NCBI RefSeq assembly: GCF_002251635.1
Contig: NZ_NMOJ01000242.1
Coordinates: 23,104 to 85,702, forward strand
DNA length: 62,599 nucleotides
Reading direction: 5' to 3'
Source of the DNA: Pseudomonas mandelii
GTDB lineage: Bacteria > Pseudomonadota > Gammaproteobacteria > Pseudomonadales > Pseudomonadaceae
The notes beneath the pieces are model-generated. The model did no database searches, had not been told where the DNA came from, and saw nothing but the letters and a program-made list of their open reading frames with translations. Positions 491 to 16,142 of the stretch are shown here, one piece after another. Both the position numbers and the translations under genes were made by a program. Position 1 is the first letter of the stretch, and every line of letters begins with the position of its first letter.

Positions 491-1609
491 TCACGTCCCG
501 GTAAACTCGCTGATATCCAGATCCGGTATTGCCTTGGACCAGACGATTTCCTCGTGGTCCCGCAGGTGGTTTTTGGTCATGCTCTCGCTCGCATGGCCAG
601 CAATTTTCTGACCATCCTTTCCGGCTTTCTTGTACAGGTGCAGCGACAGCGCTCGCACTTCGTGGAAGCCCGGCATCTCTTCTTCCTTCCATCCCGCGTA
701 GCAGTTCGCCGCCTCCCTGGCCTCCTTGAATGCTCGCGTCAAATACCTCTCCTCAACCTTTGTCCAGTGATCCTTGGTCTGCGCCTGTTTCTATTTCCAG
801 CGTTCGGGCTTCTGGTGTACCAGGTAGGGCGATACGACATCGTCACGGCATCGGCTGATGACCGCCTGCAACTCCGGCGTTATCAGAAATCGTATCCACG
901 CCGCGTCACTGACCTTGGCCGTCTTCTTCTGCACCACGTACAGGTAACCCTCCCGACTGCCATCAAAACGCATATCGAGGATGTCTGTCCGGCGCTGGGC
1001 GGTGATCAATGCCAGGTCGATTGCGTTCTGCAGCCAAGCCGGGGACTTCTCCCGGATGGCTTTCAGTCCTTCAACCGTGTGGCGTTTGCGCTGCTTCTTC
1101 TCGATCCGGTTGATGGTGCTGGCCGCCGGGTTGTCCGGGCACAGTCCTTTGGACGCAGCGTGATTGAAGATGTCGATCAGTAGCGCCCGGCACTGGTTCG
1201 CCGTGCGCGGAGTGAGCGCGTCCAGCATCTCCGCAACCATGCGAATGGTTATTTGATCGACGGTCTTGCCCTCGAATTGCTTGCGGAAGCGCCGGAAGTG
1301 CACGGCGTAAAGGCCCAACGTTCCTTTGGCCAGCTCGCGTGGCGGCAGAACGTCACGTTCGTAGGTATTGAGGAAGCCGGCAAATGACTCTGATGAGTTG
1401 CCCATAACAGCGCCGATCAGGTCAGCGCCGCGCATGAACTCCAGGTTCAACTGCTTCGCGGCATCAATCGCCTTGATTCGGTCGTTGCCAAACGGGAACC
1501 ACTTACCGTCGGTTGGCCGCCGGTAGCGATAAGTCGAGCGCCGCGAATCGAAATACAGGTTCTGCGGGAGGCTCTTGTTCGCCTTGTTGCGCGGCCGTGG
1601 GACCATCAT
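491..1609 (-). pseudogene. int: tyrosine recombinase (phage integrase), inactivated
   Basis: The frame covers 372 residues if an internal amber codon (TAG, 791-793, residue 273) is read through; both halves lie in the same frame, so this is a nonsense mutation, not a frameshift. The upstream half has a SAM-like N-terminal domain and the start of the catalytic domain with the first Arg (AQRRTDIL, ~R207). The downstream half has FHEVR (H316, R319) and GHAS (H339). At the expected catalytic tyrosine the protein reads MTKNHLRDH: codon CAC (His348) replaces TAC. Two independent lesions make it catalytically dead. It overlaps the start of the excisionase-like gene by an ATGA. It marks one end of a degraded prophage. 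Confidence 0.85.
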
Positions 1610-3225: not shown

Positions 3226-3521
3226 GGCGTCACCTGCGGACTTTCTTCTCCTATCTTGCACGATCCGCAACCATCACCGCAGGCGGGCGGAGTTGGCTCC
3301 CAAGCCGAGCAATTTGCAATCCCGCTGGCGAACCAGGCCGCTTGCAGTTCCTCCGGGGCGTCACCCTTGAAATTTCGCTCACGAACCTCCAGGCCCCGCT
3401 CGGTGAACCATGCGTAAGGGATCAGCTCGTCATCGGCGGATGGCCAAGCCGGGTGAGTCCAGCACCCAGTACCGTCTCGATGAACCGGCAGCGGCTGGAT
3501 CAAAACAGTTTCTTCAGGCAT
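3222..3521 (-). CDS. hypothetical phage protein, cysteine-rich tail
   Basis: A 99-residue acidic protein starting MPEETVLIQPLPVHRDG at the ATG 3519-3521. The C-terminal third has four cysteines (NCSAW, PPACGDGCGSC), which could bind a metal. Such proteins are common in Pseudomonas temperate phage early regions, without assigned function. It is the first gene of a coupled run with the micro-ORF and the PAPS-reductase-like gene and lies head to head with the plus-strand Ntn-hydrolase-like gene. Confidence 0.6.
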   Translation of the reverse strand: MPEETVLIQPLPVHRDGTGCWTHPAWPSADDELIPYAWFTERGLEVRERNFKGDAPEELQAAWFASGIANCSAWEPTPPACGDGCGSCKIGEESPQVTP

Positions 3522-3533
3522 GACTTCGTCCTT

Positions 3534-3547
3534 GCCGCTATAGCGGC
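3534..3547. promoter_or_regulatory. 14-bp perfect palindrome between divergent genes
   Basis: GCCGCTATAGCGGC is a perfect palindrome in the 136-bp gap between the minus-strand phage gene starting at 3521 and the plus-strand gene starting at 3658. Its position suits an operator; the binding protein is unknown. Confidence 0.3.
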
Positions 3548-3657
3548 TGATTTCGAATGGAAATGGATGTATCTGATCAGGCTAGCGAAAAGCGTGGTCT
3601 GGCAGCTATTGTTAGCTTGTTGGGGAAAATTTCGTTGATTACTGGGAGATGATCTTT

Positions 3658-4455
3658 ATGACGGTTGCGGTGGTCTGGTTTAACGAGGCGCAAAGGCAAA
3701 TATGGTGTGCGGCAGATTCTAGGCTGTCAAAAGGCGCTGGTGTGTTAATGGATGGCGGCGTAAAGGTATTTGAAGTTCCTGTTGTTTGCCGCAAGGAGGC
3801 TGGTGAATTCAATTGGGTTGTTACGGGTGACTATAGTTTTGGATTTGTTTTTTCTGGATCGTCCATTTCTGCTTTAAGTACGCACGCTATTGTCGTTGCA
3901 ATGTCGAAAAATTTGGTAGAGCGTCAAGGCGAAGAGTCAAGTATTTGTTTGGAAGATATAGCGAAGCTATTTCAATTTGTTGGTGAGCGGCAAATTAAAG
4001 AAATTGGTGAGCGTCTTGGCGCTACTGAGCATCCAAGTAGCTGTCTTTTTGACTGCGTGGTTTTCGGCATTTGCCCCAAAAAAAGAGCTCTACTGGCTTT
4101 TGAAGTTAAGACAAGTATTGCTGAAGGCGTAATGTCGGAAATCATTGTGCATGAAGTAGGTCCCGGATTTTGTCTTGCAATTGGGAGCGGAGCGGAAACC
4201 TTTAATTCTATGATGAAGGCTGGAGGTAAGCGCGTACCGCCTTTGACTGTTTTAACTAAAATGCTGTCAGAGGAGGTTCGCCCAGACGTTGGTGGTTATT
4301 TGCAGGCAGGTGTTGTAGGGGAGGGTGGGTTTAGGGTCTGCCCAATAATAGAAAAAAATAGCGAAAACACTTTGGTGGCTAGCTTTTTAGGAATAGAGGC
4401 AGAATCAGTTCCTATTAAAGGGTATGTCATTGGTTACTTGGCGGTAGGGGCGTAG
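3658..4455 (+). CDS. HslV/proteasome-like Ntn hydrolase, orphan
   Basis: A 265-residue protein. The second ATG (3658) is preferred: GGGAG lies nine bases upstream, and it exposes MTVAVVW, so Met removal would leave an N-terminal threonine. Counting that Thr as 1, AADSR puts an Asp at 19 and GGVKVF puts a Lys at 35. The Asp-Lys spacing of 16 equals that of HslV (T1, D17, K33, from memory). Further on, AIGSGAETF (~175-183) resembles the glycine-serine loop of proteasome-type beta subunits. It is longer than HslV (~175) and has no ATPase partner nearby. The gene is clearly AT-richer than its flanks, sits alone on the plus strand among minus-strand phage genes, and is probably a lysogenic cargo gene. 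Protease or amidase activity is inference; the fold assignment is fairly strong. Confidence 0.6.
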   Translation: MTVAVVWFNEAQRQIWCAADSRLSKGAGVLMDGGVKVFEVPVVCRKEAGEFNWVVTGDYSFGFVFSGSSISALSTHAIVVAMSKNLVERQGEESSICLEDIAKLFQFVGERQIKEIGERLGATEHPSSCLFDCVVFGICPKKRALLAFEVKTSIAEGVMSEIIVHEVGPGFCLAIGSGAETFNSMMKAGGKRVPPLTVLTKMLSEEVRPDVGGYLQAGVVGEGGFRVCPIIEKNSENTLVASFLGIEAESVPIKGYVIGYLAVGA

Positions 4456-4667
4456 ATGTAACCAGAAGCTTTGGAACCGAATGTATCCGCATGCCAGTTT
4501 TCTATGGGCATGGGGCGTCCTATGCCGGGTCATGCCCGGGCGGTGGCGGGGTTGGGTGTGTGGTGATGGCGTCGTCCAAGGAGTTAACTATCCGCAAGGT
4601 GCGACTAGCTGACGGGGGAACAGGTCTCTGCGGTCATGCTTTAGCTATCGCATTGGAGCGCTAACCC
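4456..4667. other. non-coding stretch with a CATG-loop hairpin
   Basis: No convincing long gene is seen. CCGGG-TCATG-CCCGG (4525-4539) forms a 5-bp hairpin similar in layout to the two hairpins at 4800 and 5847. A 32-codon frame beginning ATGGCGTCGTCC (~4566) ends just before the next micro-ORF, but nothing supports it as a gene. Confidence 0.3.
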
Positions 4668-4751
4668 GTGAAACGACTGACCGAGTGGATAAACCTAATC
4701 GCCGCTGTAATACGCCTGATCAGCGTAATCATCCGCACTGGTTGGCTATGA
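4668..4751 (+). CDS. 27-residue hydrophobic peptide
   Basis: GTG-initiated frame encoding a basic start (MKRLTEW) followed by a hydrophobic helix rich in Ile, Leu and Val (INLIAAVIRLISVII), ending RTGWL. GGAG lies nine bases upstream. The shape is that of membrane-active micropeptides such as type I toxins or small phage membrane proteins. No antisense RNA promoter was identified. It lies 78 bp upstream of another membrane-anchored cargo gene. Confidence 0.3.
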   Translation: MKRLTEWINLIAAVIRLISVIIRTGWL

Positions 4752-4780
4752 ATTGTCGTCGCTGGCGTGATTCGTTGAAG

Positions 4781-4824
4781 TGGGGTATTTGTGTTCGGAC
4801 CGGCATGAGGCCGGAACAAGGAGA
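4781..4824 (+). promoter_or_regulatory. conserved leader: GGGGTATT box, hairpin, ribosome site (copy A)
   Basis: TGGGGTATTT is followed by CCGGC-ATGAG-GCCGG (4800-4814), a 5-bp stem with a 5-base loop, then AACAAGGAGA. The same arrangement precedes the unrelated gene at 5879. The box could be a -10 element and the hairpin a leader structure that shapes ribosome access. Confidence 0.4.
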
Positions 4825-4829
4825 TATCT

Positions 4830-5198
4830 GTGGATGCTGCAATAGCAGGTCTTATCGGTGCTGCGATTGGCGCTAGCAGTTCATTGGTGACCGTATGGAT
4901 TCAGGCGCACTACCTAGCTAAAAGAGAGCGTTCGAAAGCTGTGCTGGACTTCGCTATTCGGCATCGAAGTGAGGCGTTTGAATATGCGGACAAGATCGCG
5001 GGTCCCGTTGCGGTCACACCTCTGGCAGCTCATGTGCACTATCAACAGGGGCTGTTGAAGCTGATTGAGACGAACACCCTTACAGCCGAATCGCTGGAAA
5101 AGCTGCATAGCGACAACGATGATATTTCCCAGTCCATTCAGGATGCGAAACAAGCCAGAGTGGTGGCTAAAGTCATGGCGAATCAAAATCGCAGCTAA
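4830..5198 (+). CDS. membrane-anchored cargo protein
   Basis: 122 residues from a GTG start, with AAGGAG six bases upstream. An N-terminal hydrophobic segment (residues ~3-22, AAIAGLIGAAIGASSSLVTV) would anchor it in the inner membrane. The rest is a mainly helical, charged cytoplasmic domain (YLAKRERSKAVLDFAIRH...). No family is recognised. It is a plus-strand gene between minus-strand phage genes, its 3' end overlaps the end of a minus-strand open frame by a few bases, and it has the conserved hairpin leader. Role unknown; superinfection exclusion or defence is possible by position only. Confidence 0.5.
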   Translation: MDAAIAGLIGAAIGASSSLVTVWIQAHYLAKRERSKAVLDFAIRHRSEAFEYADKIAGPVAVTPLAAHVHYQQGLLKLIETNTLTAESLEKLHSDNDDISQSIQDAKQARVVAKVMANQNRS

Positions 5199-5416
5199 TT
5201 GAGGGGCGTCACCGCATAGGGAAGCTGGGTCAGATCGGTTACAGACCAGCGTATATCCGGTCGAGGTCGTGATGTTTTTTTGCGGGGCGCTGCATTCTTG
5301 AGCGCATTTTTGTAGCTGGCCTTGGCTTCTTTCTGGGTTGTGCACCACTCACCGCTGGTGCGGCTGGTGCTGAATCTGAACTTCCGATCTTTGCCCCACC
5401 AACTGCTCCCGCTGAA
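5195..5416 (-). other. open frame in phase behind an amber stop
   Basis: Directly after the TAG that ends the phage gene at 5417, the same frame stays open for about 73 codons and looks like real protein (WWGKDRKFRFSTSRTSGEW, later KTSRPRPDIRWSVTDL), ending in another TAG at 5195-5197. No ATG or GTG start is available near its beginning. Either the upstream gene once continued here and acquired an amber codon, or this is the remnant of a following gene that lost its start. Confidence 0.35.
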
Positions 5417-5788
5417 CTACAGATTCGGCTTCTCGATGCCCAGCCACTCGGCGAACGTGCAGTTGATATCGGCATCCAGAAACTGCTCGTAGCGGGTCAG
5501 CTTCGGCAGGGGCGGCAGCTTACCCCGCGCAGCCCGTTCACCGTCTCGCGTTGCGCGATAGACAACCTCTGATTGGCCACAGAAGGCGGGTGGCTTGCCG
5601 CATGCCATCAGGCCGGCAGAGACCAGAACATCCAGGTTATTCGCGTCGTCGTAGCCGGGACTGGTCAGAAAGTTGTTGCGGGTCACCGTGCGGCGGTTGC
5701 GATCTTCCGGCTGTATGCCCAGGGTGTGCCAAAGCAGACCAAGCTGGACCGCGCTGATTTCTGCAGAGCATTGGTTATCTCCAGTCAG
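5417..5788 (-). CDS. conserved phage early protein, damaged start
   Basis: The protein-like frame extends well upstream of the first GTG (5684-5686): SAEISAVQLGLLWHTLGIQ then PEDRNRRTVTRNNFLTSPGY and so on to LGIEKPNL. The only in-frame start behind a good ribosome site (GGAGGG) is CTG at 5786-5788. An ATG at 5769-5771 with GGAG upstream would give MSAEISAV if one extra C were absent, so I suspect a 1-bp insertion at the start codon. The frame ends in an amber codon after which coding-like sequence continues. Function unknown; it is part of the leftward phage operon. Product may be absent in practice. Confidence 0.5.
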   Translation of the reverse strand: MTGDNQCSAEISAVQLGLLWHTLGIQPEDRNRRTVTRNNFLTSPGYDDANNLDVLVSAGLMACGKPPAFCGQSEVVYRATRDGERAARGKLPPLPKLTRYEQFLDADINCTFAEWLGIEKPNL

Positions 5789-5808
5789 GCGCCGCCCTCC
5801 GTGACCGG
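5787..5808. repeat. junction repeat copy 1
   Basis: The 22-base core AGGCGCCGCCC...GACCGG recurs at 6526 and 6960. Read on the minus strand it encodes VTEGGA followed here by TGA and a TGGAG ribosome site. It looks like the 3' end of a phage gene left at each cargo insertion point. Confidence 0.7.
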
Positions 5809-5829
5809 TGGTGGTAATTTGGTTTGGGT

Positions 5830-5870
5830 TGGGGTATTACGGGTGACCGGCATGGAGCCGGATCAAGGAG
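5830..5870 (+). promoter_or_regulatory. conserved leader copy B
   Basis: TGGGGTATTA, hairpin CCGGC-ATGGA-GCCGG (5847-5861) and ATCAAGGAGA, the same order as copy A at 4781, two bases shorter between box and hairpin. It leads into the 75-residue gene starting at 5879. Confidence 0.4.
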
Positions 5871-5878
5871 AGCGTTCG

Positions 5879-6106
5879 ATGGCTGGTCCAAGCAATAGAG
5901 AAATCGCAATTGAGCAAGCAGCAGTTGCAATGCTCTTTGAAGCCGAGAAGCTCGGAATAGACATTTCTGCTTTAGCTGAAAAAGCTAAGGTGGGCATTCT
6001 GGGTAATGCTTCCTACACGTGGGTATCCGATCACGGCCTAAAATTAGAGTCTGCAGAAGCAGCCCTTTATCTCGTATCTGCTGTTAGGAACGAACCGGCG
6101 GAATAA
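5879..6106 (+). CDS. small cargo protein, unknown
   Basis: 75 residues, starting MAGPSNREIAIEQAAVAML, with AAGGAG eight bases upstream. It is helical, without a signal or membrane segment, and no family is recognised. The 3' end overlaps the 3' end of the minus-strand phage gene by 23 bp, so the cargo stop TAA falls inside the codons for the phage PGDEVI tail. The same arrangement is seen for the cargo gene ending at 7860. Confidence 0.5.
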   Translation: MAGPSNREIAIEQAAVAMLFEAEKLGIDISALAEKAKVGILGNASYTWVSDHGLKLESAEAALYLVSAVRNEPAE

Positions 6107-6455
6107 CTTCGTCCCCAGGCTCTGGCGGATCGTCGGCGAGCGATTTCATGCCGGCGGCCTGAATGATGCGCGACACCTTTTCGGTTACAACAAAAGGTGT
6201 CGTGACAAAGCGAAGCATCTTGGCTTGGGTTTCGTAATCGGCGGCGATCAGGTTCCGCAGCAGGTTCTGATACACCTCCTGCTCAATGTTGAAGCCGTGT
6301 TCTTTCATCAGGCGCTTGAGGTCTGACATGAACACGCCGGCCACCTCAACCTTGAAATGCCCGACTCCCTTCGCGGCATCGTCCGCCGCTTTCTTCTCGC
6401 GCTTCTTGCGCTGCTTGATGGCTTCCGCCGTCGGCTCCTGCTGTTCCTCGGCCAT
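6084..6455 (-). CDS. phage early protein with PGDEVI tail
   Basis: About 123 residues from ATG 6453-6455 (MAEEQQEPTAEA), with AGG six bases upstream. A lysine-rich coiled N-terminus (KQRKKREKKAADDAAKG) is followed by a globular part and a proline/acidic tail ending PPEPGDEVIPPVRS. The tail motif recurs in the gene at 7811. Its last codons lie inside the inserted cargo gene, so the native C-terminus was probably replaced. No enzymatic motif is recognised. Confidence 0.55.
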   Translation of the reverse strand: MAEEQQEPTAEAIKQRKKREKKAADDAAKGVGHFKVEVAGVFMSDLKRLMKEHGFNIEQEVYQNLLRNLIAADYETQAKMLRFVTTPFVVTEKVSRIIQAAGMKSLADDPPEPGDEVIPPVRS

Positions 6456-6525
6456 GGCCTGCCTCTTCAATTCCGTGGGCCGGTAGATCCAGCCATGTCT
6501 GTCGTCGGCGCTGGCGCACTCCAGT

Positions 6526-6553
6526 TAGGCGCCGCCCTCCGTGACCGGATGCG
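6526..6553. repeat. junction repeat copy 2
   Basis: A 28-base copy, identical to the one at 6960-6987, flanks the lipoprotein cargo on its left. On the minus strand it reads (C)HPVTEGGA followed by TAA and CTGGAG. Confidence 0.75.
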
Positions 6554-6623
6554 ACAGTGGTTGTATGTTTTCGGGTGTGGCAGAGTGATGGCCAGCTTCC
6601 CTACTCCACAAGGAATGTTGCCG

Positions 6624-6962
6624 ATGCGGCTTTTATTGGTTTCAACGATCACCGTACTTATCGCTGGTTGCTCTGTGCCGGGCATCGTGCCGATGGGGCG
6701 CGACACATACATAGTCGCGAAGGATGGCAGCTTCACCACCTTCGGCGGCGGAGCCGTCAAGGCTGAGCTGTACCAGCAAGCCAATGTCTTTTGTGAAAAC
6801 AAAGGGAAGCAGCTTATGCCTGTGAAAGAAGCATCCCGAGATTCCGGCTACGGTCGCTATGCCAATGCCGAACTGCAATTCCGTTGCCTTGATGCAAACG
6901 ATCCAGAGTTGCGTCGCCCAACGATGTCGTCAGAGCCAAGCGTGAAGATCAAAGTCGAGTAG
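6624..6962 (+). CDS. small lipoprotein cargo gene
   Basis: 112 residues starting MRLLLVSTITVLIAGCSVPG: a short signal peptide and lipobox (LIAGC, cleavage before Cys16). The start at 6624 has AAGGA nine bases upstream; an ATG at 6615 is too close to that site. The mature part has a YIVAKDGSFTTFGGG strand-rich region and two further cysteines (FCENK, FRCLD) that could pair. The TAG stop forms the first bases of the right-hand junction repeat, so the gene is framed by two identical 28-bp repeats. Lipoproteins in lysogens can block superinfection or alter the surface; here that is only a suggestion. Confidence 0.65.
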   Translation: MRLLLVSTITVLIAGCSVPGIVPMGRDTYIVAKDGSFTTFGGGAVKAELYQQANVFCENKGKQLMPVKEASRDSGYGRYANAELQFRCLDANDPELRRPTMSSEPSVKIKVE

Positions 6963-6987
6963 GCGCCGCCCTCCGTGACCGGATGCG
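6960..6987. repeat. junction repeat copy 3
   Basis: Identical over 28 bases to 6526-6553 and starting with the TAG stop of the lipoprotein gene. On the minus strand the frame arriving from 7057 reads ...KPHPVTEGGA and then continues into cargo, as expected if a gene tail was interrupted here. Confidence 0.75.
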
Positions 6988-7071
6988 GCTTTGGTTGAAG
7001 GACTATATTGATGGTTGCGCCAATGAACTCGGACTGCGTACTCTCGATGCTCATCAAACGAGGCGTTAAAC

Positions 7072-7323
7072 ATGAGCAACCGTCAACTTGAAGAAGCGCA
7101 AGAAAATCGCCATAACGAGATCATCGGCGAGCACATCGGCCTTTCTGCCGATGAGGTTGCAGAGTACGTGACGGACATCCAAGACCAGGATAATGGCACC
7201 GGTCATGTCATATATTTCTCTATCGCGATTCCGAAAAGCGTCCGTGATAAAGTTGATGGGCTTGGCGATGAGCTTTACCTGAACACAGGCCCTATCGACT
7301 TTGATGAAGAGGGCGAGCAGTAA
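7072..7323 (+). CDS. small acidic cargo protein
   Basis: 83 residues (MSNRQLEEAQENRHNEII...), ending in an acidic tail FDEEGEQ. GAGG lies eight bases upstream of the ATG. No signal peptide or known domain is visible. Low molecular weight and strong negative charge are features shared by anti-restriction and inhibitor proteins, but nothing more specific can be said. It follows the third junction repeat on the plus strand, opposite to the phage genes. Confidence 0.5.
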   Translation: MSNRQLEEAQENRHNEIIGEHIGLSADEVAEYVTDIQDQDNGTGHVIYFSIAIPKSVRDKVDGLGDELYLNTGPIDFDEEGEQ

Positions 7324-7329
7324 CCCGAC

Positions 7330-7473
7330 TCAAGCCGCCTCGATGCCGGTCTTGGCGAATTGCTTAAGCTGTCGCGACTGCTTTTCCGTAACGACGATTT
7401 CAGGTCGCGACATGGTGGAGAAGCGGGCGGATTCTTCGGCGGGTGCCAGCTTCGGTGACCGAACGTTGGCAAT
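7330..7473 (-). pseudogene. C-terminal remnant of a phage gene
   Basis: An open frame without a start codon reads PKLAPAEESARFSTMSRPEI, continues VVTEKQSRQLKQFAK and ends TGIEAA. The only ATG (7411-7413) would give 27 residues. The 5' part has been cut away where the cargo gene at 7525 begins, so this is probably a truncated early gene. Confidence 0.45.
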
Positions 7474-7524
7474 TTAAGCTTGGATGATGTCTGATGGCGC
7501 TTCAAATTAAGCAATGGAGGCTTT

Positions 7525-7860
7525 ATGTCTTTTTTCAGAGCAGCTCAGTGTTTTTCAACTGCAATTGACACCCTGATGATTCCTCACCCCCACGGCGTGA
7601 CACCTCACATTACCAGGGCGCTGATTGAATGCAACGAGGCGGTTGACAGCATTCCAGTGAATAAGCTAGACGCCGAAGCCGCTGGTTGGATTGAGCAGCT
7701 AAATGTGTTGTTGGACTATCGACATTTGACAGTTCCGCAAGGCAAAGGCGGCCTAGAAGTAAAGGCAGAAACACTCGGAGAAACTGATCAAATTCAGCTT
7801 TCCCAATTGGTCAAAGATCTTTATGACTGGTGCAGTGAGGCAAACCGACAGGGTTTATAA
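7525..7860 (+). CDS. cargo protein, unknown
   Basis: 111 residues (MSFFRAAQCFSTAIDTLM...), with GGAGG before the ATG. It is helical and soluble, with no recognised family. Its TAA stop lies in the sequence TAACTTCGTC, the same as at the end of the cargo gene stopping at 6106; in both cases this is the reverse complement of the phage PGDEV(I) codons. The gene is isolated on the plus strand and resembles the other cargo modules. Confidence 0.5.
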   Translation: MSFFRAAQCFSTAIDTLMIPHPHGVTPHITRALIECNEAVDSIPVNKLDAEAAGWIEQLNVLLDYRHLTVPQGKGGLEVKAETLGETDQIQLSQLVKDLYDWCSEANRQGL

Positions 7861-8185
7861 CTTCGTCGCCCGGGTCGCCAGGGTCGCGCCGTAGCTCGGC
7901 CAAGCTCTCTTCACGAAACATCAACGCCACGTTTTCGCTTATCTGCAATTTGTGGGGCGGGCTTTCAATCGCTTGGTAGGACAGGGTCGACCCGAGCCCA
8001 TGAGCGTTCAGGATGAGGTTCTGCACTGCCTCGTTGATTTCCTCAATACCGTTCCAGGCCATCAACTCATCAAGCTTCTGACGGGTGCCGAGCCTGACCC
8101 GGTGCCGCAGTTCCTTCTCGTCGTACTCGATCCTCTTCTCGGCGGCCTTCGCCGATCGCTCTTGTCCACTCGGGAAATAATTGGC
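7811..8185 (-). pseudogene. phage early protein lacking its start
   Basis: The coding-like frame runs from about 8185 (GQERSAKAAEKRIEYDEKEL...) through RLGTRQKLDELMAWNGIEEI to DPGDPGDEVI, where a cargo gene interrupts it. No ATG, GTG or TTG start exists at the 5' end; the first internal ATG is near 8065. Together with the gene at 6084 it belongs to a small phage family with a PGDEV tail. Both ends appear altered, so it is probably non-functional or starts internally. Confidence 0.45.
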
Positions 8186-8245
8186 TTACGGATGCACCAT
8201 GTACTGAATCTGGACAAATGAACTGCTACATCGCTTTGATATGGG

Positions 8246-8716
8246 CTATGCGGCGCATGAATCGACCTTCACCTGGCGCCAAGCGCCGACAGCTTCGAAG
8301 ATCCGCGCGGCGTGCGCCTCGTCCAGGGACATCGCTTCGGGAATGGCGATCCAGCCCGAAGCCACCATCTGGCTTTGATTGGCCTCGTCGCGCAGCTTCT
8401 TGTAGCAATGCTCGATCACGTCTTCCAGGTGGTCGGAGAGGTAGACGCCATCGGGCGCCACCTCCACCGACTTGCTGTAGCGGTCGCCGCGGGCGTCGAT
8501 GCAGAGGGCGCTGAGGTAGATCGTCCACCGGTGGGGAATGCCGCAGACGGCCTGGCCGATCTTCCCCGGTGCGATGTTCTTGAGCGACTTGCAATTGATC
8601 ATGCCCTGGCGGCCGCTGGGGTCGATGTTCACCACCGCGACGTGGTTGGAGGCCAGCAGCGACCGGCAGGACCGGTCAATGCGGGCTTTGAGGTTGTGCG
8701 GCTTGCGCTTGCTCAT
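8246..8716 (-). CDS. conserved phage early protein
   Basis: 156 residues, MSKRKPHNLKARIDRSCRSL..., a type very common in Pseudomonas temperate phages. The centre (VAVVNIDPSGRQGMINCKS) and the HLEDVIEHCYKKL segment are well formed, and the protein ends VGAWRQVKVDSCAA. The start overlaps the upstream gene by ATGA. No function is known to me. Confidence 0.65.
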   Translation of the reverse strand: MSKRKPHNLKARIDRSCRSLLASNHVAVVNIDPSGRQGMINCKSLKNIAPGKIGQAVCGIPHRWTIYLSALCIDARGDRYSKSVEVAPDGVYLSDHLEDVIEHCYKKLRDEANQSQMVASGWIAIPEAMSLDEAHAARIFEAVGAWRQVKVDSCAA

Positions 8717-8955
8717 AATGCCTCCGCGAGTTTGCGCAGCGCTTCACGCTCGGCCCGAGTAATGGGCGGCTTGCGGCGCTTGAGGATGGTTTCGGGATCG
8801 ATCTTGGTGGAGCGGGGCGGTGGCAGCGGTTTGCGTGGCGGGCTTGGCAACTGCGCGACTGTCCCGCCTGCGGCCAAGAACTCCGCAATCCGGTTGGAGA
8901 TTGATTCAGCGTTCTCCCGCTGCTGCTCGACTAAGTTGAGGTGGTTGCTAATCAT
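8713..8955 (-). CDS. small phage protein
   Basis: 80 residues with a helical N-terminal half (LVEQQRENAESISNRIAEFL), a proline-rich linker (LPSPPRKPLPPPRSTK) and a basic helix (TRAEREALRKLAEAL). Four-base overlap with the following gene and two bases from the exonuclease gene indicate one operon. Function unknown. Confidence 0.6.
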   Translation of the reverse strand: MISNHLNLVEQQRENAESISNRIAEFLAAGGTVAQLPSPPRKPLPPPRSTKIDPETILKRRKPPITRAEREALRKLAEAL

Positions 8956-8957
8956 GA

Positions 8958-9620
8958 TCAGGCTCCTAAACGATAGGCTTGCGCCCTGGCTTTGTCCGCG
9001 ACCTCATCAACCATGCGATTCAGTTCCAGGTTGAACTGGACCAGCTCTTTGTGCAGGTTGGCGATGTAGTCTTCGTTTCGGTGGATCGTCTCGATGTACA
9101 GCTGACACTCCTCATCTTGGCGAGAGTCGAACGACAGGAAGTCCCACCATTTCCGGCCGGTAACGAACATGCAGCCCTGTACCTGAGTCATGTGTTCCTC
9201 GTGCATGCCTTCGAGCCGGGTCCTGACGTGTATCGCCTCATTGAAAGGGCACTTCGACTCGGTGCCCCCGTCGTCGTTTATCAGTCCGTCTGGCGAACAG
9301 CCGAGCCAGTCGTACTTCGGGTGAACGATGAATTCTGACGGCATGACGATGTTGCCGGTCAGCATCTCGTAGGCGTCCTGAGCCTTCTGTTCTTCGGTGT
9401 GACCCCACTTCATGGAAGCGCTGCTGACGTTGTGCTTCGACTTCTTTGCCAGCCGTTCGAAACACAGTTCACGCATGTACGAGGTGCGCGCGCCCATAGG
9501 TTCGCGCTTGCCATTTTTGTCGGGCTTACCCCAGGCCACCACGTCTTTAAACCGGCTGGCGGTTACTCGGCCAGATCGGTCTGCATTCCACTTCTCAGTG
9601 CCTTGAAGTTCCGCTCTCAC
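8958..9620 (-). CDS. YqaJ-type viral recombinase / lambda-type exonuclease
   Basis: 220 residues from a GTG (9618-9620) that shares one base with the upstream TAG. The PD-(D/E)xK nuclease core is visible: WGHTEEQKA (E76/E77), GCSPDG (D111) and ESK (E121, K123). Family role: 5'-3' degradation of dsDNA ends to prepare single-strand annealing recombination during phage replication. A recombinase partner (Bet/RecT) is not visible, in line with deletion of flanking genes. Length is normal and all core residues are present, so this enzyme may still be functional. Confidence 0.85.
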   Translation of the reverse strand: MRAELQGTEKWNADRSGRVTASRFKDVVAWGKPDKNGKREPMGARTSYMRELCFERLAKKSKHNVSSASMKWGHTEEQKAQDAYEMLTGNIVMPSEFIVHPKYDWLGCSPDGLINDDGGTESKCPFNEAIHVRTRLEGMHEEHMTQVQGCMFVTGRKWWDFLSFDSRQDEECQLYIETIHRNEDYIANLHKELVQFNLELNRMVDEVADKARAQAYRLGA

Positions 9621-11477: not shown

Positions 11478-11891
11478 ATGACCAGCAAAGCCCGTGTTCT
11501 GTTTGTCTGTACTGCCAACGCTGCACGCTCCCAGTTGGCCCAGGCGTTGCTGAGGCATACCGATTCGGAGCATTTCGAGGCGTTCAGCGCCGGCACAACT
11601 CCAACTCAGGTAGATCCGCGCACCTTCGAGGTGCTTTCACACATCGGTGTGAGCACCGAAGGATTACGTAGCAAGTCGATAGACGAGTTCCGTGGTGAGC
11701 GTTTCGATTACGTCATCACCTTGTGTGATAAATCCGCTGCGCAATGCCGGTCTTTACCTGGAGCGGGTGAGGCATTGGCCTGGAGTTTTGAAGACCCGGT
11801 CACCAGCACCAAACCCGATGCCTTCCGTCACACCCTTCACGAAATTCATGAGCGCATCAAGATGTTCGTCTTGGTCAAAAACAAGCACTGA
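11478..11891 (+). CDS. arsC: arsenate reductase, low-molecular-weight phosphatase fold
   Basis: 137 residues. The phosphatase-type P-loop CTANAARS (C11, R17) near the N-terminus and a later DPV loop define the LMW-PTP-like ArsC family, cytoplasmic enzymes that reduce arsenate to arsenite with glutaredoxin or thioredoxin. The start has TGAGG seven bases upstream. It is the first intact gene of an operon that continues with arsR ten bases downstream. A second, different arsC follows; this copy might instead act as a phosphatase-like accessory. Regulation by ArsR is likely from the upstream dyad. Confidence 0.75.
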   Translation: MTSKARVLFVCTANAARSQLAQALLRHTDSEHFEAFSAGTTPTQVDPRTFEVLSHIGVSTEGLRSKSIDEFRGERFDYVITLCDKSAAQCRSLPGAGEALAWSFEDPVTSTKPDAFRHTLHEIHERIKMFVLVKNKH

Positions 11892-11900
11892 GAAAACGAT

Positions 11901-12272
11901 ATGGCTGACCATCTGACACCGACCACTGTTTTCAAATGCCTTGCTGACGACACTCGGGTCCGCACGATGATGCTCATCACCCGTGAAGGAGAGCTTTGTG
12001 TTTGCGAGCTGACCTGCGCGTTGAACGAGAGTCAGCCAAAAATCTCCAGGCACCTGGCGCAACTGCGTACTTGCGGCCTGTTGTCGGACCGTCGGCAAGG
12101 CCAATGGGTGTATTACCGACTTCACCCGAATCTTCCTGATTGGGTTCATCAAGTGCTGACCACCGTGCTGGAAAGCAACAAGCACTGGTTGAGCCCTGAT
12201 GCCAAACGCCTTGATGAAATGGGTGACCGTCCTGAACGGGCAGCCGTGTGCTGTGAAAGCAAAATCGCCTGA
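11901..12272 (+). CDS. arsR: arsenite-responsive repressor
   Basis: 123 residues, winged-helix ArsR/SmtB family. The metalloid site ELCVCEL (C33, C35) lies at the start of the DNA-binding helices, followed by the recognition helix SQPKISRHLAQL and the wing RRQGQWVYYRL. A C-terminal AVCC pair may contribute to binding. Family role: a dimer that represses the ars operon until As(III) binds the cysteines. It sits between two arsC genes in one transcription unit. Confidence 0.9.
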   Translation: MADHLTPTTVFKCLADDTRVRTMMLITREGELCVCELTCALNESQPKISRHLAQLRTCGLLSDRRQGQWVYYRLHPNLPDWVHQVLTTVLESNKHWLSPDAKRLDEMGDRPERAAVCCESKIA

Positions 12273-12299
12273 TTCCGCCTTTGACTATGAGATCACTCG

Positions 12300-12770
12300 A
12301 TGAAAATCCTGTTCCTCTGCACGGCCAATAGCTGTCGCAGCATCCTTTGTGAGGCGGTTTTCAATCACTTGGCACCGCAAGGCATGAAAGCCTACAGCGC
12401 GGGCAGTCAACCCAAAGGCGACGTGCATCCGCTGAGTCTCAAAACTTTGGAAAACGCTGGTATGTCGACGCTCGGGCTGTTCAGTAAGTCCAGCGATGTC
12501 CATGTGAATTTGGCACCTGATTTCGTCATCACGGTGTGCGACAAGGCAGCTGGTGAAGCTTGCCCGGTATTTTTTGGACCCGCCACCAAAGCCCACTGGG
12601 GGCTGGCTGACCCTTCGGAATACCACGGGACGCAAGAAGAGATCGATGCGGCTTTTGAAGCCACCTTGGAGCAGATCAAAACCCGTATTGAAGCTTTCTT
12701 GGCTTTACCGCTTGCCCGACTGAGTGCCGAACAGCTCAAGGCAGAACTGGCCCTGATTGGCATGCTGTAA
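12300..12770 (+). CDS. arsC: thioredoxin-type arsenate reductase
   Basis: 156 residues. P-loop CTANSCRS (C7, C12, R13) plus a distal pair in VCDKAAGEAC (C80, C88) provides the cysteine relay of the thioredoxin-coupled ArsC family: nucleophilic Cys in the P-loop and two Cys that form the disulfide. It turns arsenate into arsenite in the cytoplasm. Slightly longer than typical (~140) because of a C-terminal helical tail. It follows arsR and precedes the remains of an arsenite pump, so its product would now lack a dedicated exporter within this operon. Confidence 0.88.
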   Translation: MKILFLCTANSCRSILCEAVFNHLAPQGMKAYSAGSQPKGDVHPLSLKTLENAGMSTLGLFSKSSDVHVNLAPDFVITVCDKAAGEACPVFFGPATKAHWGLADPSEYHGTQEEIDAAFEATLEQIKTRIEAFLALPLARLSAEQLKAELALIGML

Positions 12771-12781
12771 CCACAGGAACA

Positions 12782-12890
12782 ATGACCATGAGTAAAAATC
12801 GCCTTTCCTTCCTGGGCCGATATCTGGTTGAAGGGCCGTTGGTTCGATGACTCCAAGAGCGCTGTTGCGCAGGACAAAGACTATGTTTGA
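12782..12890 (+). pseudogene. internally deleted arsenite efflux pump
   Basis: ATG at 12782/12788 behind AGGA opens MSKNRLSFLGRYL, the cytoplasmic start typical of ACR3/ArsB-type pumps, and then collapses. A few bases later another frame reads [19 protein letters not shown] and stops at 12888-12890, which resembles a pump's hydrophilic C-terminus. About 350 residues of membrane protein are missing between them, so an internal deletion with frame change is inferred. The position between arsC and arsH is that expected for the pump gene. The family (ACR3 versus ArsB) cannot be fixed from so little. Confidence 0.45.
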
Positions 12891-13596
12891 AGACGACATC
12901 CCCCAACTCGATACCGACCTGGTTGATCTTCCATCGGCTGACAAGCTGGGCATCGAGAAGACCTCCATCCACAAGCCGCGCATCCTGCTGCTTTACGGCT
13001 CGACGCGCGAGCGCTCTTTCAGTCGGCTGCTGACCGAGGAAGCCGCACGGATTCTGCGTTTGATGGGCGCCGAAACGGTGATCTTCGATCCCTCTGGCCT
13101 CCCGCTCCCCGACGATGCGTCCAGCGACCATCCCAAAGTCCAGCAACTGCGCGAGCGGGTGCTCTGGTCCGAAGGCCAGGTCTGGTGCTCACCGGAACGC
13201 CACGGCTCGATGTCGGCAGTGTTCAAGGCGCAACTTGACTGGGTGCCGCTGGCGTTGGGTGCCGTGCGGCCCACCCAGGGCAAGACCTTGGCGGTGATGC
13301 AAGTGTCGGGCGGCTCGCAATCTTTCAACACCGTCAATCAACTGCGCGTGCTCGGACGTTGGATGCGCATGTTCACCATCCCCAATCAATCCTCGGTGCC
13401 CAAAGCATTCATGGAGTTCGACGACCAGGACCGCATGAAACCGTCGGCGCTTTACGACCGCGTCGTCGATGTGATGGAAGAACTGGTGAAGTTCACCTTG
13501 TTACTGCGCGACCGCCCGGACCTGGTAGACCGTTACTCGGAGCGCAAGGAAAGCGCTGATGAGCTGTCGCAGCGGGTCAACCAACGGTCGATTTGA
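12883..13596 (+). CDS. arsH: ArsH, NADPH-dependent FMN reductase
   Basis: 237 residues from ATG 12883 (AGGA eight bases upstream); the longer frame from 12847 crosses the pump remnant. The flavodoxin-like FMN site [11 protein letters not shown] and the segment [13 protein letters not shown] are characteristic. ArsH oxidises trivalent organoarsenicals such as methylarsenite to the less toxic pentavalent form and has quinone/azo reductase activity. The start overlaps the last codons of the pump remnant. Full length and motifs intact. Confidence 0.92.
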
Positions 13597-13641
13597 TCGA
13601 CCCTGCCAGCGTATGCTCAAGCAAACCGCTTCCCGAGCTGA

Positions 13642-13884
13642 ACACAGTTCAATGGCCAATTGATCTTCACCCCGCAGCGGCTGACCGAAGGGGACACCAT
13701 CGCCATCCATTGCAAGGGCGGATCGGGTCGTACCGGTTTGGTCGCCGCTCAACTGTTGATCGAGAGCGATGTGCCATTCAGCGATGCCATCCGCGATGTT
13801 CAGTCGTTGCGTCCACGCGCCATTCAACATCCTGCCCATATCGAATACATCGGCCAGTTCGACACTCAGTCGAACTCCCACTGA
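13642..13884 (+). pseudogene. dual-specificity phosphatase fragment
   Basis: The C-terminal part of a tyrosine/dual-specificity phosphatase: [10 protein letters not shown] is the HCx5R signature, followed by [13 protein letters not shown] at 13639-13641 closes the frame and no start precedes LIFTPQRL except a TTG at 13660, so roughly the first half is missing. Similar phosphatase genes sit between arsH and the GAPDH gene in other ars operons. It might still be translated from the TTG as a 74-residue stub, but the general-acid loop would be absent. Confidence 0.55.
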
Positions 13885-13907
13885 CAACAGATACAGAGCA
13901 CAACAAC

Positions 13908-14912
13908 ATGACTATCAAAGTTGGCATCAATGGTTTCGGTCGGATCGGTCGCCTCGCGCTGCGAGCAGCCTGGGGCTGGCCAGAATTCGAATTCGTGCAG
14001 ATCAACGATCCAGCGGGTGACGCGGCGACGCATGCACACTTGCTGAACTTCGACTCGGTGCATGGTCGTTGGCACCACGAAGCCAGCGCGGAAGGCGATC
14101 AGGTGGTGATTGGCGGCAAGCGCATCAAGGTGACAGCTAACAAAGCGATTGCCGACACCGACTGGTCGGGTTGCGATCTGGTGATCGAGGCCAGCGGCAA
14201 GATGAAAACCGTGGCGGTGTTGCAAGCCTACCTGGATCAGGGCGTCAAGCGCGTGGTGGTCAGCGCTCCCGTGAAGGAAAAAGGTGCGTTGAACGTCGTC
14301 ATGGGCGTCAACCATCAGTTGTTCAAACCGGCTGAACATCGCATCGTTACCGCCGCTTCGTGCACCACTAACTGTCTAGCGCCCGTGGTGAAAGTCATCC
14401 ACGAGAAACTGGGCATTCGCCACGGTTCGATCACCACCATCCACGACCTGACCAACACCCAAAGCATCCTCGATCAACCGCACAAGGATCTGCGTCGTGC
14501 GCGTGCTTCGGGTATGAGCCTGATTCCAACCAGCACCGGCTCGGCCACCGCGATTGCCGAAATCTTCCCGGAACTGCGCGGACGCCTGAATGGTCATGCC
14601 GTTCGTGTGCCGCTGGCCAACGCGTCGCTGACCGACTGCGTCTTTGAAGTCGAGCGTGCCACCACTGTCGAAGAGGTGAATCAACTCCTCAAGGACGCCT
14701 CCGAGAACGAGCTGAAAGACATCCTCGGTTTTGAGGAGCGTCCGTTGGTGTCCATCGACTACCGCACCGACCCGCGTTCATCGATCATCGATGCCCTGTC
14801 GACGATGGTGATCAATGGTACTCAAGTGAAGATCTATGCCTGGTACGACAACGAATGGGGCTATGCCAATCGCGCCGTCGAACTGGCCAGACTGGTCAGT
14901 CTGGCGGACTAA
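13908..14912 (+). CDS. arsenic-associated glyceraldehyde-3-phosphate dehydrogenase
   Basis: 334 residues from ATG 13908 ([16 protein letters not shown]); the longer open frame upstream overlaps the phosphatase fragment and is not real. The NAD-binding GxGxxG and the catalytic ASCTTNC (C152) are present, as is the C-terminal [11 protein letters not shown]. In ars operons this enzyme uses arsenate in place of phosphate to form 1-arseno-3-phosphoglycerate, which ArsJ exports. arsJ follows nine bases downstream, supporting that role over housekeeping glycolysis. Confidence 0.92.
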
Positions 14913-14921
14913 GGAGCGGTC

Positions 14922-16142
14922 ATGAAAGCGTTGTCAGCCCTCGCTCCGGAAGTGCGGCAGTACTTGCTCGTCACGGGCAACTATTGGGCCTTCACCCTCA
15001 CCGACGGTGCCTTGCGCATGTTGGTGGTGTTGCACTTTCACGCGTTGGGCTACAGCCCACTGCAAATCGCGGCGTTGTTTCTGTTCTACGAAATCTTTGG
15101 CGTGATCACCAACCTGGTGGGTGGCTACCTCGGCGCCCGGCTGGGACTGAACCGAACCATGAACATCGGGCTGGGCATCCAAGTCGTGGCGCTGTTGATG
15201 CTGACGGTTCCTGTCGCTTGGCTAACCATCCCGTGGGTGATGGGCGCACAGGCGCTGTCGGGGATCGCCAAAGACCTGAACAAGATGAGTGCCAAAAGCT
15301 CCATCAAGCTTCTGGTTCCTGACGGGCAGCAGGGCAGGCTCTACCAGTGGGTGGCAATCCTCACCGGCTCGAAGAACGCACTCAAGGGGGTCGGCTTCTT
15401 TCTCGGCGGAGCCTTGCTGGCATTGATCGGCTTCAAAGGTGCATTGCTGGCCATGGCGGGTGTTCTGGCGCTGATCTGGATCAGCAGCTTGATACTGCTG
15501 AAGAAGGACTTGGGCAAAGCGAAAGCCAAACCCAAGTTTCGCGACATCCTGTCCAAGAGTCGGGCGATCAATATCCTCTCGGCGGCGCGGATGTTCTTGT
15601 TCGGAGCCCGTGACGTCTGGTTTGTGGTGGCCTTGCCGGTGTACCTGAGCAGCGTGTTCGGCTGGGACTTCTGGAAGGTGGGTGGCTTCCTTGCGGCGTG
15701 GGTGATCGGCTACGGCATCGTGCAGTCGTTTGCGCCCAACATCACTGGCAAGAAACGCGGCCACGTACCGGATGGTCGTGCGGCATTTCTGTGGGCCCTT
15801 GCACTGGCAGGCTTGCCTGCGGCAATTGCTCTCGGGCTTAACACTGCTTTGTCGCAGCAGATGATGCTACTCGGCGGATTGATGGTCTTTGGTGCGCTGT
15901 TCGCGGTGAATTCGTCGCTGCACAGCTACTTGATCGTGTCCTATGCCAAGGAAGATGGCGTGTCGCTGGATGTGGGGTTTTATTACATGTCGAATGCGAT
16001 GGGAAGGCTGATAGGTACAGTACTGTCCGGGTGGGTTTATCAGGTGTATGGGCTGCAAGCGTGCTTGTGGATATCGAGCGCATTCGTTCTGCTCGCAGCA
16101 CTGATTTCTATCGGGCTGCCGAGGCATGCCGAGGCGATATGA
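14922..16142 (+). CDS. arsJ: ArsJ, organoarsenical MFS efflux pump
   Basis: 406 residues, about 12 transmembrane segments, beginning MKALSALAPEVRQYLLVTGN with AAGGAG upstream. The LVGGYLGARLGLNRTMNIGL loop and a further polar LLKKDLGKAKAKPK central loop fit the ArsJ branch of the major facilitator superfamily. It exports 1-arseno-3-phosphoglycerate made by the upstream GAPDH; together they give arsenate resistance without an arsenite pump. It is the last gene of the plus-strand ars operon. Confidence 0.9.
   Translation: MKALSALAPEVRQYLLVTGNYWAFTLTDGALRMLVVLHFHALGYSPLQIAALFLFYEIFGVITNLVGGYLGARLGLNRTMNIGLGIQVVALLMLTVPVAWLTIPWVMGAQALSGIAKDLNKMSAKSSIKLLVPDGQQGRLYQWVAILTGSKNALKGVGFFLGGALLALIGFKGALLAMAGVLALIWISSLILLKKDLGKAKAKPKFRDILSKSRAINILSAARMFLFGARDVWFVVALPVYLSSVFGWDFWKVGGFLAAWVIGYGIVQSFAPNITGKKRGHVPDGRAAFLWALALAGLPAAIALGLNTALSQQMMLLGGLMVFGALFAVNSSLHSYLIVSYAKEDGVSLDVGFYYMSNAMGRLIGTVLSGWVYQVYGLQACLWISSAFVLLAALISIGLPRHAEAI

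Follow-up and report, generated by a model that had tools for sequence, protein, structure and literature searches.

The window analyzed here is a 62,599-nucleotide stretch of Pseudomonas mandelii DNA in which single plus-strand genes alternate with minus-strand phage genes, as the original prediction had described and as the ORFs of the window bear out. The plus-strand genes (hence, cargo) are single genes that face against the operon, and we take the slot holding them to be the gap that separates a landing-pad gene A (phrog_5439) from gene B, which follows it in the operon; a 21-bp joint often precedes the B start (Table 1). Two cargo stops had been placed in phage codons for PGDEV, and those at 6106 and 7860 do fall in PPEPGDEV and DPGDPGDEV, respectively, of two minus-strand phage genes, the stop of the 5879-to-6106 cargo lying within the tail of the one that occupies 6087 to 6455. 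By eye, the B gene downstream of the first joint is without an intact 5' end. The 111-aa cargo appears by eye to be akin to the cargo of locus L036 and, frameshifted, to that of locus L165.

Table 1. Genes and sequence elements in and around the cargo slots of the window
Feature	Position	Strand	Basis or remark
Possible further cargo, 268 aa, no joint	3649..4455	+	ORF; no Pfam family
Further cargo, 122 aa, GACCGGCATGAGGCCGGAACAAGGAGA leader, no joint	4830..5198	+	ORF; repeat D8
Phage gene B downstream of joint 1, phrog_21796 type	5417..5686	-	E = 2.9e-20, profile 30-119 of 192
Joint copy 1	5788..5808	+	Core match
Promoter-like element TGGTAA-N17-TATTAC of the 5879 cargo	5812..5840	+	Consensus match, relatives' spacing
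Leader: second GTGACCGG, CCGGC/GCCGG hairpin, AAGGAGA ribosome site	5843..5878	+	Read from the sequence; repeat D8
Cargo, 75 aa	5879..6106	+	phrog_31739 (unknown function), E = 1.3e-4
Landing-pad gene A, phrog_5439, subfamily A2, convergent with cargo	6087..6455	-	E = 5.2e-23
Joint copy 2	6528..6548	+	Core match
Cargo, lipoprotein-like, 112 aa	6624..6962	+	Signal LLVSTITVLIAGC by eye; 6-member cargo family
Joint copy 3, fused to lipoprotein cargo stop	6962..6982	+	Two cassettes stacked in tandem
Cargo, 83 aa	7072..7323	+	ORF; no Pfam or phrog family matched
Frame with C-terminal remnant of third phrog_5439-type gene (A3 tail)	7333..7473	-	HMM E = 1.6e-8, profile 67-103
Degenerate joint GGTGACCG, then promoter-like TGGCAA-N17-TCTGAT	7454..7495	+	By eye; layout as L036
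Cargo, 111 aa	7525..7860	+	ORF; no Pfam or phrog family matched
Landing-pad gene A of subfamily A1, lacking its N-terminal end	7814..8185	-	HMM E = 8.6e-39, profile 12-113; phrog_5439 E = 3.2e-31
Phage gene upstream of A, phrog_5434	8246..8716	-	E = 6.5e-58
Phage recombination exonuclease, YqaJ	8958..9620	-	PF09588, E = 8e-24

All three copies of the joint core, GGCGCCGCCCTCCGTGACCGG, lie on the plus strand, and none was found on the minus strand of the window. The three repeats from which the original prediction started are therefore all present, with those from 6526 and 6960 matching over exactly 28 bp as stated, and it is their description as a shared VTEGGA-stop on the minus strand that holds only in part: it is true of those at 5788 and 6528, whereas the 6962 copy runs on as VTEGGAYSTL without a stop. 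We ruled out the interpretation of the repeat as a common coding tail because the 6962 copy is without a stop and, in relatives, the element precedes the start codon of the next phage gene, with varied genes following at a near-fixed distance. At up to three mismatches, the core occurs in its own genome only at the three window sites (reversed-pattern control, 0). With one base left free, at least 120 stretches of viral contigs contain it, and at up to one mismatch it was found in 40 of 298 Pseudomonas genomes, at 50 places (reversed control, 2). Outside Pseudomonas, its occurrence is near chance level, and the joint is, by these counts of matching sequences, restricted to that genus. The repeat is confirmed, and its spread reaches far beyond the window.

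For a comparison across phages, we collected 170 joint contexts with up to three mismatches, counting identical contexts once and retaining those that were nearly identical. Nine with less than 400 nt on the right side were dropped, and 5 of the remaining 161 stayed unclassified; genes were called by a heuristic and not by a gene finder, and 6 script-called cargo sites, at which a minus-strand ORF ends 19 to 28 nt from the joint, were relabelled as empty by hand. This gave a final set of 156 classified sites, 132 with cargo and 24 empty. The conservation of the joint in the set is partly a product of selection, because its members were chosen by near-exact match among the at least 120 stretches. 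An ungapped identity of 0.59 for the joint is misleading, since one sequence class carries an extra, inserted base; a gapped alignment was used instead. Among the joints listed, 137 loci have one copy, 12 have two, and 2 have three.

The two sides of the slot differ in kind, one being a single family (A) and the other diverse (B). Opposite B, the joint is followed either by one cargo gene or, where there is none, immediately by the A gene's 3' end. A phrog_5439-type gene lies convergent to and less than 1.5 kb from the joint in 141 of 152 joints, the remaining 11 having no A-type gene nearby, as counted with a profile that was itself built from genes beside joints and with near-identical loci kept. 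At the 156 sites, 144 A ORFs were called, 108 of them in one cluster, and 140 B ORFs, which fall into 47 families with 32 singletons. The proposed insertion of cargo at the 3' termini of related phage genes accordingly stands for the right side, where the genes are mostly of the phrog_5439 type, and fails on the left, where the repeat is the joint ahead of the next gene's start; a 3' end is thus present on the right only. We also assembled loci by A alone (80 of 222 and 80 of 102 relatives, 3 of these 160 being too short), with near-identical contigs kept and some contigs shared with the joint-selected set. These 157 loci comprise 101 filled, 39 empty, and 17 unclear slots. In 75 of the 101 filled ones, no joint is recognizable, so the joint is not needed everywhere. 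When 31 empty-type sites of this set were aligned on CATC plus the two bases after it, 26 were found to keep CCG and CGGAGGGCGGC, with the letters in between varying in number and kind, and 5 depart from the pattern.

The cargo at the joints listed amounts to 132 ORFs in 83 families. For the protein alignment, 130 of the 132 were used, two short doubtful ones being omitted. At most 19 of these 130 proteins match Pfam, in 15 families, and NCBIfam gave almost no matches to the cargo; PADLOC names at most 9 of the 130 (AbiP, 3; PD-T7-4, 2; TIR-TM, 1; and three PDC-M14B models, 1 each). Many cargo genes have a conserved TGGCAA-N17-TAT-like leader together with a ribosome site. Of the 132 sites, 29 have no anchor; in 77 of the other 103, TGGC lies 3 nt past the joint. 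The TAT-like hexamer 17 nt beyond TGGC is kept in 24 promoter-like elements whose spacers have changed. A consensus promoter scan of positions 3500 to 8300 returned 0 sites, below the mean of 3.2 in shuffled sequence. The leader is, as judged from its sequence, promoter-like, conserved, and far from consensus. A sigma-54 promoter was also considered for it and dropped by eye, the GC of the -12 element being missing. Terminators were predicted at 1 of the 132 cargo ends, which is not above chance (1.2 in shuffles).

It had been predicted that the same junctions in relatives would carry different single genes or none. We found precisely this in pairs of loci that share flanks: content differs in all 8 strict pairs (each flank 300 nt or longer and no less than 85% identical), in 27 of 30 medium pairs, and in 111 of 120 loose pairs, the pairs not being independent (the loose setting consists of 12 clusters with 59 loci). 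Among the differing pairs, 2 strict, 10 medium, and 25 loose ones contrast an empty with a filled slot, and 11 of the 12 loose clusters hold at least two contents. Cargo in fixed order, one of two outcomes that had been named as contrary to repeated exchange, is rare, with 9 of 120 loose pairs alike, 6 of these being empty in both members; the other, repeats without cargo, does occur, at 24 of the 156 classified sites. When seven pairs were laid out, identity stopped at the joint end or a few bases past it in six, and in the pair L013/L087 it continued through the leader. The right breakpoint varies and often lies within the cargo 3' end or the A tail. The states can be followed in single genomes as well: PseuP_224 reads NdpA-joint-A, and PseuP_222 reads NdpA-joint-cargo-cargo-A, their joints having 5 mismatches each. 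Of 25 multimember cargo families, 17 are found beside different B families, 2 occur with one B family only, and 6 have B called for just one of their members. A joint or joint-like piece follows within 80 nt of the cargo stop in 8 of 132 cases, i.e., cargo is stacked in tandem. Slot anatomy, empty and filled states, varied cargo per slot, the same cargo family across slots, and tandem stacking are all directly visible in these comparisons of phage sequences. The idea of a modular island is largely right, because the pairs sharing flanks differ in the single genes at these repeated junctions and 101 of the 157 A-selected loci carry convergent cargo. Pseudomonas phages would thus appear to have docking sites, formed by the end of a small gene and often by a short joint, where single genes differ as if swapped.

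The joint might be first of all a functional element of the operon messenger (for translation or as an operator) that is under selection, with the exchange being ordinary mosaicism whose edge it marks. The distance from joint to B start is 15 to 17 nt in 118 of 140 joints listed, although the spacers (14 to 18 nt) form 8 sequence classes; joints without cargo exist; GGAGG resembles a ribosome site; and the CCG plus CGGAGGGCGGC pattern of the empty-type sites looks like a small hairpin, in which no covariation is seen because the stem letters are invariant in the 26 sites. However, a locus has the joint ahead of one to three genes only, almost always downstream of A; no gene B goes with the copy at 6962; and the strict pairs change content at or near the joint edge. 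We give this explanation a chance slightly short of even.

A second possibility centers on protein A. Its predicted monomer (mean pLDDT, 80.4) has helices at 40 to 53 and 58 to 71 and no strand, and over residues 29 to 79 it resembles NikR and antitoxins with Z scores of about 4 to 5.4 (NikR, 5.4 over 45 residues); the best Foldseek E value is 2.7, a middling fold match. Pfam searches with three A proteins gave no useful match and a PDB sequence search gave no credible one, and the model suggests that A is probably a ribbon-helix-helix DNA-binding protein. Proteins of that class are DNA-binding dimers with a strand-helix-helix fold. The joint and the leader GTGACCGG could then be operators through which A represses or times the cargo, making the whole one regulatory unit. 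The co-occurrence of A and the joint and the likeness of the A model to ribbon-helix-helix regulators are consistent with this, as is a second TGACCGG, which 29 of the 132 cargo sites have at any spacing and 22 have 42 bp past the first. Yet the second copy is absent from most sites, the same joint stands beside A subfamilies that are only about 15 to 30% identical, most filled A-selected slots have no recognizable joint, and the fold match is only middling. We regard control by A as rather unlikely.

The sharp left boundary and the tandem stacking could also point to a site-specific cassette, integron-like or transposon-like, that recognizes the joint. Integron cassettes are promoterless genes that end in an attC site and are moved by an IntI-type integrase. 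The cargo resembles them in consisting of single-gene units, some in tandem, but its right end is variable, each cargo has its own leader, many filled slots are without a joint, and no recombinase occurs among the 15 Pfam families matched by the 130 cargo proteins. A cassette of this kind is very improbable.

The cargo also shares features with morons, defined in the relevant part of PMC3029335 as genes with a promoter and terminator that one genome has and a relative lacks. Like these, single genes are present or absent between the same contiguous phage genes, both in the flank-sharing pairs and between PseuP_224 and PseuP_222, and have a promoter-like leader. Unlike what is set out there, a terminator was predicted for only 1 of 132, the cargo is convergent with a phage gene whose end it often overlaps, and the sites recur at one gene family, many with a common joint and leader. 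Given this likeness and the generality of phage mosaicism (PMC3029335), the pattern might simply be ordinary mosaicism, with morons gained through random illegitimate recombination and the joint common to these phages by descent only. Counted at joints and at A genes, however, insertions recur at the 3' end of one gene family and at one joint, beside many B families, and the same cargo family occupies different slots in 17 of 25 cases; we consider purely random joining improbable.

Three further systems invite comparison. Short conserved boundary sequences have been proposed for phage module exchange (as named in PMC3029335), and the joint, a short stretch conserved at the edge of an exchanged module and overlapping a start region, is like them; it is unlike them, as far as that account goes, in being one 21-bp sequence found in at least 120 stretches and tied to a landing-pad family and opposite-facing cargo, and in most filled A-selected slots it cannot be recognized. 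The start-associated sequences (SAS) of cluster K mycobacteriophages are 13-bp GGGATAGGAGCCC elements with many copies per genome, typically 3 to 7 nt before the start, according to the portion of PMC3203893 that describes them. The joint is similarly short, asymmetric, phage specific, and at a near-fixed distance from varied start codons, but its sequence differs from GGGATAGGAGCCC, it has 1 to 3 copies per locus (3 in its own genome) in place of many, it lies 15 to 17 nt from the start, and it is tied to cargo exchange. Prophage anti-phage hotspots likewise are small phage loci with high gene turnover and some defense genes, and turnover between conserved phage genes is high here (11 of 12 loose clusters); the slots differ in being one or a few per phage and for single genes, with a common joint, one conserved side, and few defense matches. 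The joint element was not found among the top literature matches (title and abstract start, with subscription journals mostly outside the coverage), nor did the joint's 21 letters or phrog_5439 with common terms yield such a paper in the top matches, although one may exist; the accessible parts of PMC8508860 and PMC13182921 do not mention it.

We favor, and consider likely, an explanation in which the leftward early operon of temperate Pseudomonas phages houses a rack of cargo slots, with exchange and expression in lysogens included. Cargo would be exchanged by homologous recombination, for which the joint and leader would supply the matching sequence at one edge and the conserved A genes at the opposite edge, possibly helped by the phages' own exonuclease and an annealing protein of the Erf/Rad52 type. 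Recombination genes do lie near the slots, namely, YqaJ in the window and an exonuclease with an ERF-like protein in phiAH14a. Erf of Pseudomonas phage D3 was one of the Rad52-like recombinases that De Paepe 2014 tested, and the main role of these recombinases, in the section concerned, is given as exchanges of short and diverged sequences (PMC3945230). The cargo may be expressed in lysogens from its own promoter while the operon is silent, and part of it may serve in defense against other phages. Against this explanation stand the filled slots that have no recognizable joint, the variable right breakpoint, the 11 joints with no A-type gene nearby, the lack of consensus promoters and of terminators above chance, and the small number of PADLOC matches. 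A bolder version, which we hold to be doubtful, is a genus-wide exchange platform kept for that purpose, in which paralogous ribbon-helix-helix landing pads stand beside a joint with two functions, starting the next gene and allowing phages to trade single lysogeny genes via the annealing recombinase, the landing-pad protein controls the cargo, and the whole would be an analogue of the integron that works by homologous recombination.

It has long been asked whether phages become mosaic by random joining or at short conserved boundary sequences. With one joint and one landing-pad family beside more than 100 different cargo genes, this question becomes directly testable in cultured phages. The slots, where no more than 19 of the 130 cargo proteins have a Pfam match, may further serve as a simple address for finding lysogeny and anti-phage genes.

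The 21-bp core GGCGCCGCCCTCCGTGACCGG borders the cargo slots of the window in three plus-strand copies, and with these and one further, degenerate joint stand four cargo genes; no further core with up to 3 mismatches was found in the window's own genome. The original prediction held that two copies of the repeat are identical over 28 bp, which is true of those starting at 6526 and 6960, and that two cargo stops fall within PGDEV codons of minus-strand genes, as the sequence bears out. Its reading of the repeat as VTEGGA followed by a stop does not extend to the third copy, which reads VTEGGAYSTL without a stop; the repeat therefore does not represent a protein tail. Read on the minus strand, the phage operon's sense strand, the core precedes the called start codon of the operon gene beyond it (gene B) by 15 to 17 nt in 118 of 140 cases, with spacers of 8 sequence classes. 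The 140 gene B ORFs fall into 47 families (15 multimember and 32 singletons, possibly with false ORFs among the latter). As the distance to the start codons is nearly fixed, the joint is suggested to act in translation or regulation, a function compatible with a role as homology for exchange. Empty slots have the 3' end of the landing-pad gene (gene A) about 20 nt or somewhat more from the core; in filled ones, one plus-strand gene stands in between, convergent with gene A. An ORF heuristic with six hand corrections classified 161 sites with enough sequence as 132 filled, 24 empty, and 5 unclassified. In phage phiPSA1 (locus L336), the gene A tail directly adjoins a core-like site (2 mismatches) together with the beginning of the promoter leader, with no cargo in between, an arrangement that by eye looks like a deletion scar.

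We compared joint slots, as distinct from other operon junctions, through flanks of up to 400 nt per side. Among pairs alike on both sides over at least 300 nt at 85% identity, the contents differ in 8 of 8 (empty versus filled in 2); at 200 nt and 80%, they differ in 27 of 30 (empty versus filled in 10), and at 100 nt with no identity limit, in 111 of 120 (empty versus filled in 25), 6 of the 9 equal-content pairs being empty on both sides. These pairs are interdependent, the loose set comprising 59 loci in 12 clusters, 11 of them with two or more contents. The same junctions thus carry different single genes or none, as predicted. Seven locus pairs were compared at single-base resolution: in L034 versus L067, the last 68 bases shown are identical through the core plus 7 bases, whereupon the sequences are unlike until they become alike again in the gene A tail. 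Identity ends at the core end or a few bases past it in six of the seven pairs, and in L013/L087, it continues across the leader. Cargo ORFs number 132 and form 83 families (58 singletons). Twenty-five families have more than one member: 17 of these occur next to two or more called B families and 2 next to just one, and the other 6 have a B call for a single member. Within 80 nt after 8 of the 132 cargo genes lies a further core or a piece resembling it, so cassettes can be stacked; five of these eight belong to a six-member lipoprotein family, the window's lipoprotein gene being one of the five.

Gene A is a single family, with 108 of 144 ORFs in one cluster and three of three proteins tested matching phrog_5439 (function unknown). 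Of 59 Pseudomonas genomes, 30 contain phrog_5439; 14 control genomes all lack it. At loci selected by the core, independently of gene A, a convergent A-type gene lies within 1.5 kb of 141 of 152 cores (counted with a profile built from the A cluster, whose genes are among those counted, and including near-identical loci). Conversely, 160 of 324 relatives of the A proteins were kept as loci selected by gene A alone; the 157 usable ones comprise 101 slots with convergent cargo, 39 empty, and 17 unclear. A joint with up to 4 mismatches lies within 1.5 kb downstream of gene A in 23 of 77 and 20 of 80 cases and upstream in 0 of 76 and 4 of 79; by a wider definition, filled slots without a recognizable joint number 75 of 101, and empty ones 14 of 39. 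In some empty sites, the corresponding position is occupied by a divergent class that carries one extra base, CCGGTAACCGGAGGGCGGCGC. Since slots selected by gene A are frequently without the joint, the gene A end is the more general slot mark, with the 21-bp joint as one of the forms that the opposite border takes.

Among named phages, PseuP_224 has an NdpA gene adjoining gene A with a core-like sequence (5 mismatches) in between, and PseuP_222 has NdpA, a core-like sequence (5 mismatches), two plus-strand genes, and then gene A. In phiAH14a, gene A is flanked by the integrase on one side and an exonuclease plus ERF-like gene on the other, and the core-like site of Cruim01 lies between the integrase and SSB plus nuclease genes, layouts that correspond to the lambdoid left arm. 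In Cruim01, a gene annotated as a retron-type reverse transcriptase takes gene A's place, its 3' end about 23 nt from the core-like site (2 mismatches) and an RNA feature, RT-15, annotated at its other end.

A structure predicted for the window's gene A (mean pLDDT, 80.4; pTM, 0.43) had no significant Foldseek match among solved structures (best E, 2.7); many of the rows listed are what we take to be ribbon-helix-helix regulators and antitoxins. Realignment gave NikR at Z 5.4 (2.3 Å over 45 residues, covering residues 29 to 79). Because the Z values are middling, a ribbon-helix-helix fold is likely for this model rather than established. One phiAH14a ORF matches the gene A profile twice in succession, each time in part, and four compared genomes (G004, G030, G045, and G052) have similar neighboring double matches. 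Ahead of the gene A start, a stretch ending in ...CCGGCCAGCGGAATTGAAGAGGTAGGCC (with variants) overlaps a small basic ORF and is conserved in most of 28 loci.

Anchoring on TGGC was possible at 103 of 132 sites (the other 29 have no such anchor), and in 77 of the 103 it begins 3 nt past the core; 17 nt past TGGCAA stands TATTAC, TTTGAT, or similar. The spacer is altered in 24 promoters belonging to different cargo families; in these, the first three hexamer positions are still T (0.88), A (0.71, the rest T), and T (0.83). A hairpin-like pattern occurs in 42 of 132 leaders. A second TGACCGG follows the joint's by exactly 42 bp, about four helix turns, in 22 of 132 cargo sites (29 at any spacing), the copies flanking the promoter-like element. 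As the usual consensus promoter scan of window positions 3500 to 8300 found none, the leader would be a weak or unusual promoter or a motif with another meaning. Accessory genes of phages are often highly expressed in lysogens, as stated in one paper (PMC7067206).

The joint is widespread, yet confined to one genus, Pseudomonas. At least 120 stretches emerged from viral contigs scanned with one base of the core free, and 40 of 298 Pseudomonas genomes have it with at most 1 mismatch (50 places; reversed control, 2). It was found in 1 of 194 genomes sampled from the order (4 of them Pseudomonas), the window's own, and in 4 of 299 from the phylum (7 Pseudomonas), its own and three others with one mismatch each. 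Core plus leader occurs on 13 genome contigs, every one Pseudomonas, and a 95-nt consensus query of a phage collection recovered 18 Pseudomonas phages and 2 faecal phages (20 records). Most of 130 cargo proteins matched nothing in PADLOC or Pfam. PADLOC at 1e-5 matched at most 9 (AbiP, 3; PD-T7-4, 2; TIR-TM, 1; three PDC-M14B models, 1 each), and Pfam at 1e-3 recovered putAbiC (3), DUF4145 (2), DUF6082 (2), and 12 more families once each, including AbiU2, TIR, DUF3800, SMI1/KNR4, and deaminases. A defense role is plausible for part of the cargo but not in general.

The window holds a remnant of a prophage, because its integrase lies in two ORFs; of its A genes, one lacks the N-terminal end and another is reduced to a tail. 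Its phage genes seem to stop at about 10.2 kb, adjoining what we take, from the translations, to be arsenic-resistance-like genes. Farther on lies a tandem array of 42-bp units (TCGATCAGGCGATCCGATCCGCCTTCGGCAACACTGCGGCGC...) with an 18-base piece in seven exact copies.

Coordinates of features in the window and in compared phage loci
Feature	Location	Strand	Remark
21-bp core GGCGCCGCCCTCCGTGACCGG	5788, 6528, 6962	+	
Cargo genes	5879, 6624, 7072, 7525	+	
Leader type, recurring	ahead of 4830		
Stretch ending ...CCGGCCAGCGGAATTGAAGAGGTAGGCC	6456-6510		upstream of gene A; also L107, L132
Integrase ORF, catalytic domain	491-742		weak match below Pfam's cut-off
Integrase ORF, Arm domain	791-1609		Pfam; central domain also there, weak match below cut-off
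YqaJ exonuclease gene	8958-9620	-	
Arsenic-resistance-like genes (presumed)	11478-16142		
Tandem array	57485-57838		
phiAH14a (L170), double profile match	6006-6494		
Cruim01 (L333), region in gene A's place	8317-9521		
Cruim01 reverse transcriptase gene	8361-9521	-	
phiPSA1 (L336), core-like site and leader start	8324-8390		

The best explanation, which we hold to be reasonably probable from these sequence comparisons, is that these are cargo slots whose content is exchanged by homologous recombination between phages. The joint or leader would supply the homology at one border, gene A that at the other; the window's remnant has a recombination gene, YqaJ. The cargo differs from morons in lacking terminators, with one at only 1 of 132 cargo ends, and the joint differs from start-associated sequences in sequence and copy number. 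The joint-and-slot system is a variant on morons, boundary sequences, and prophage hotspots.
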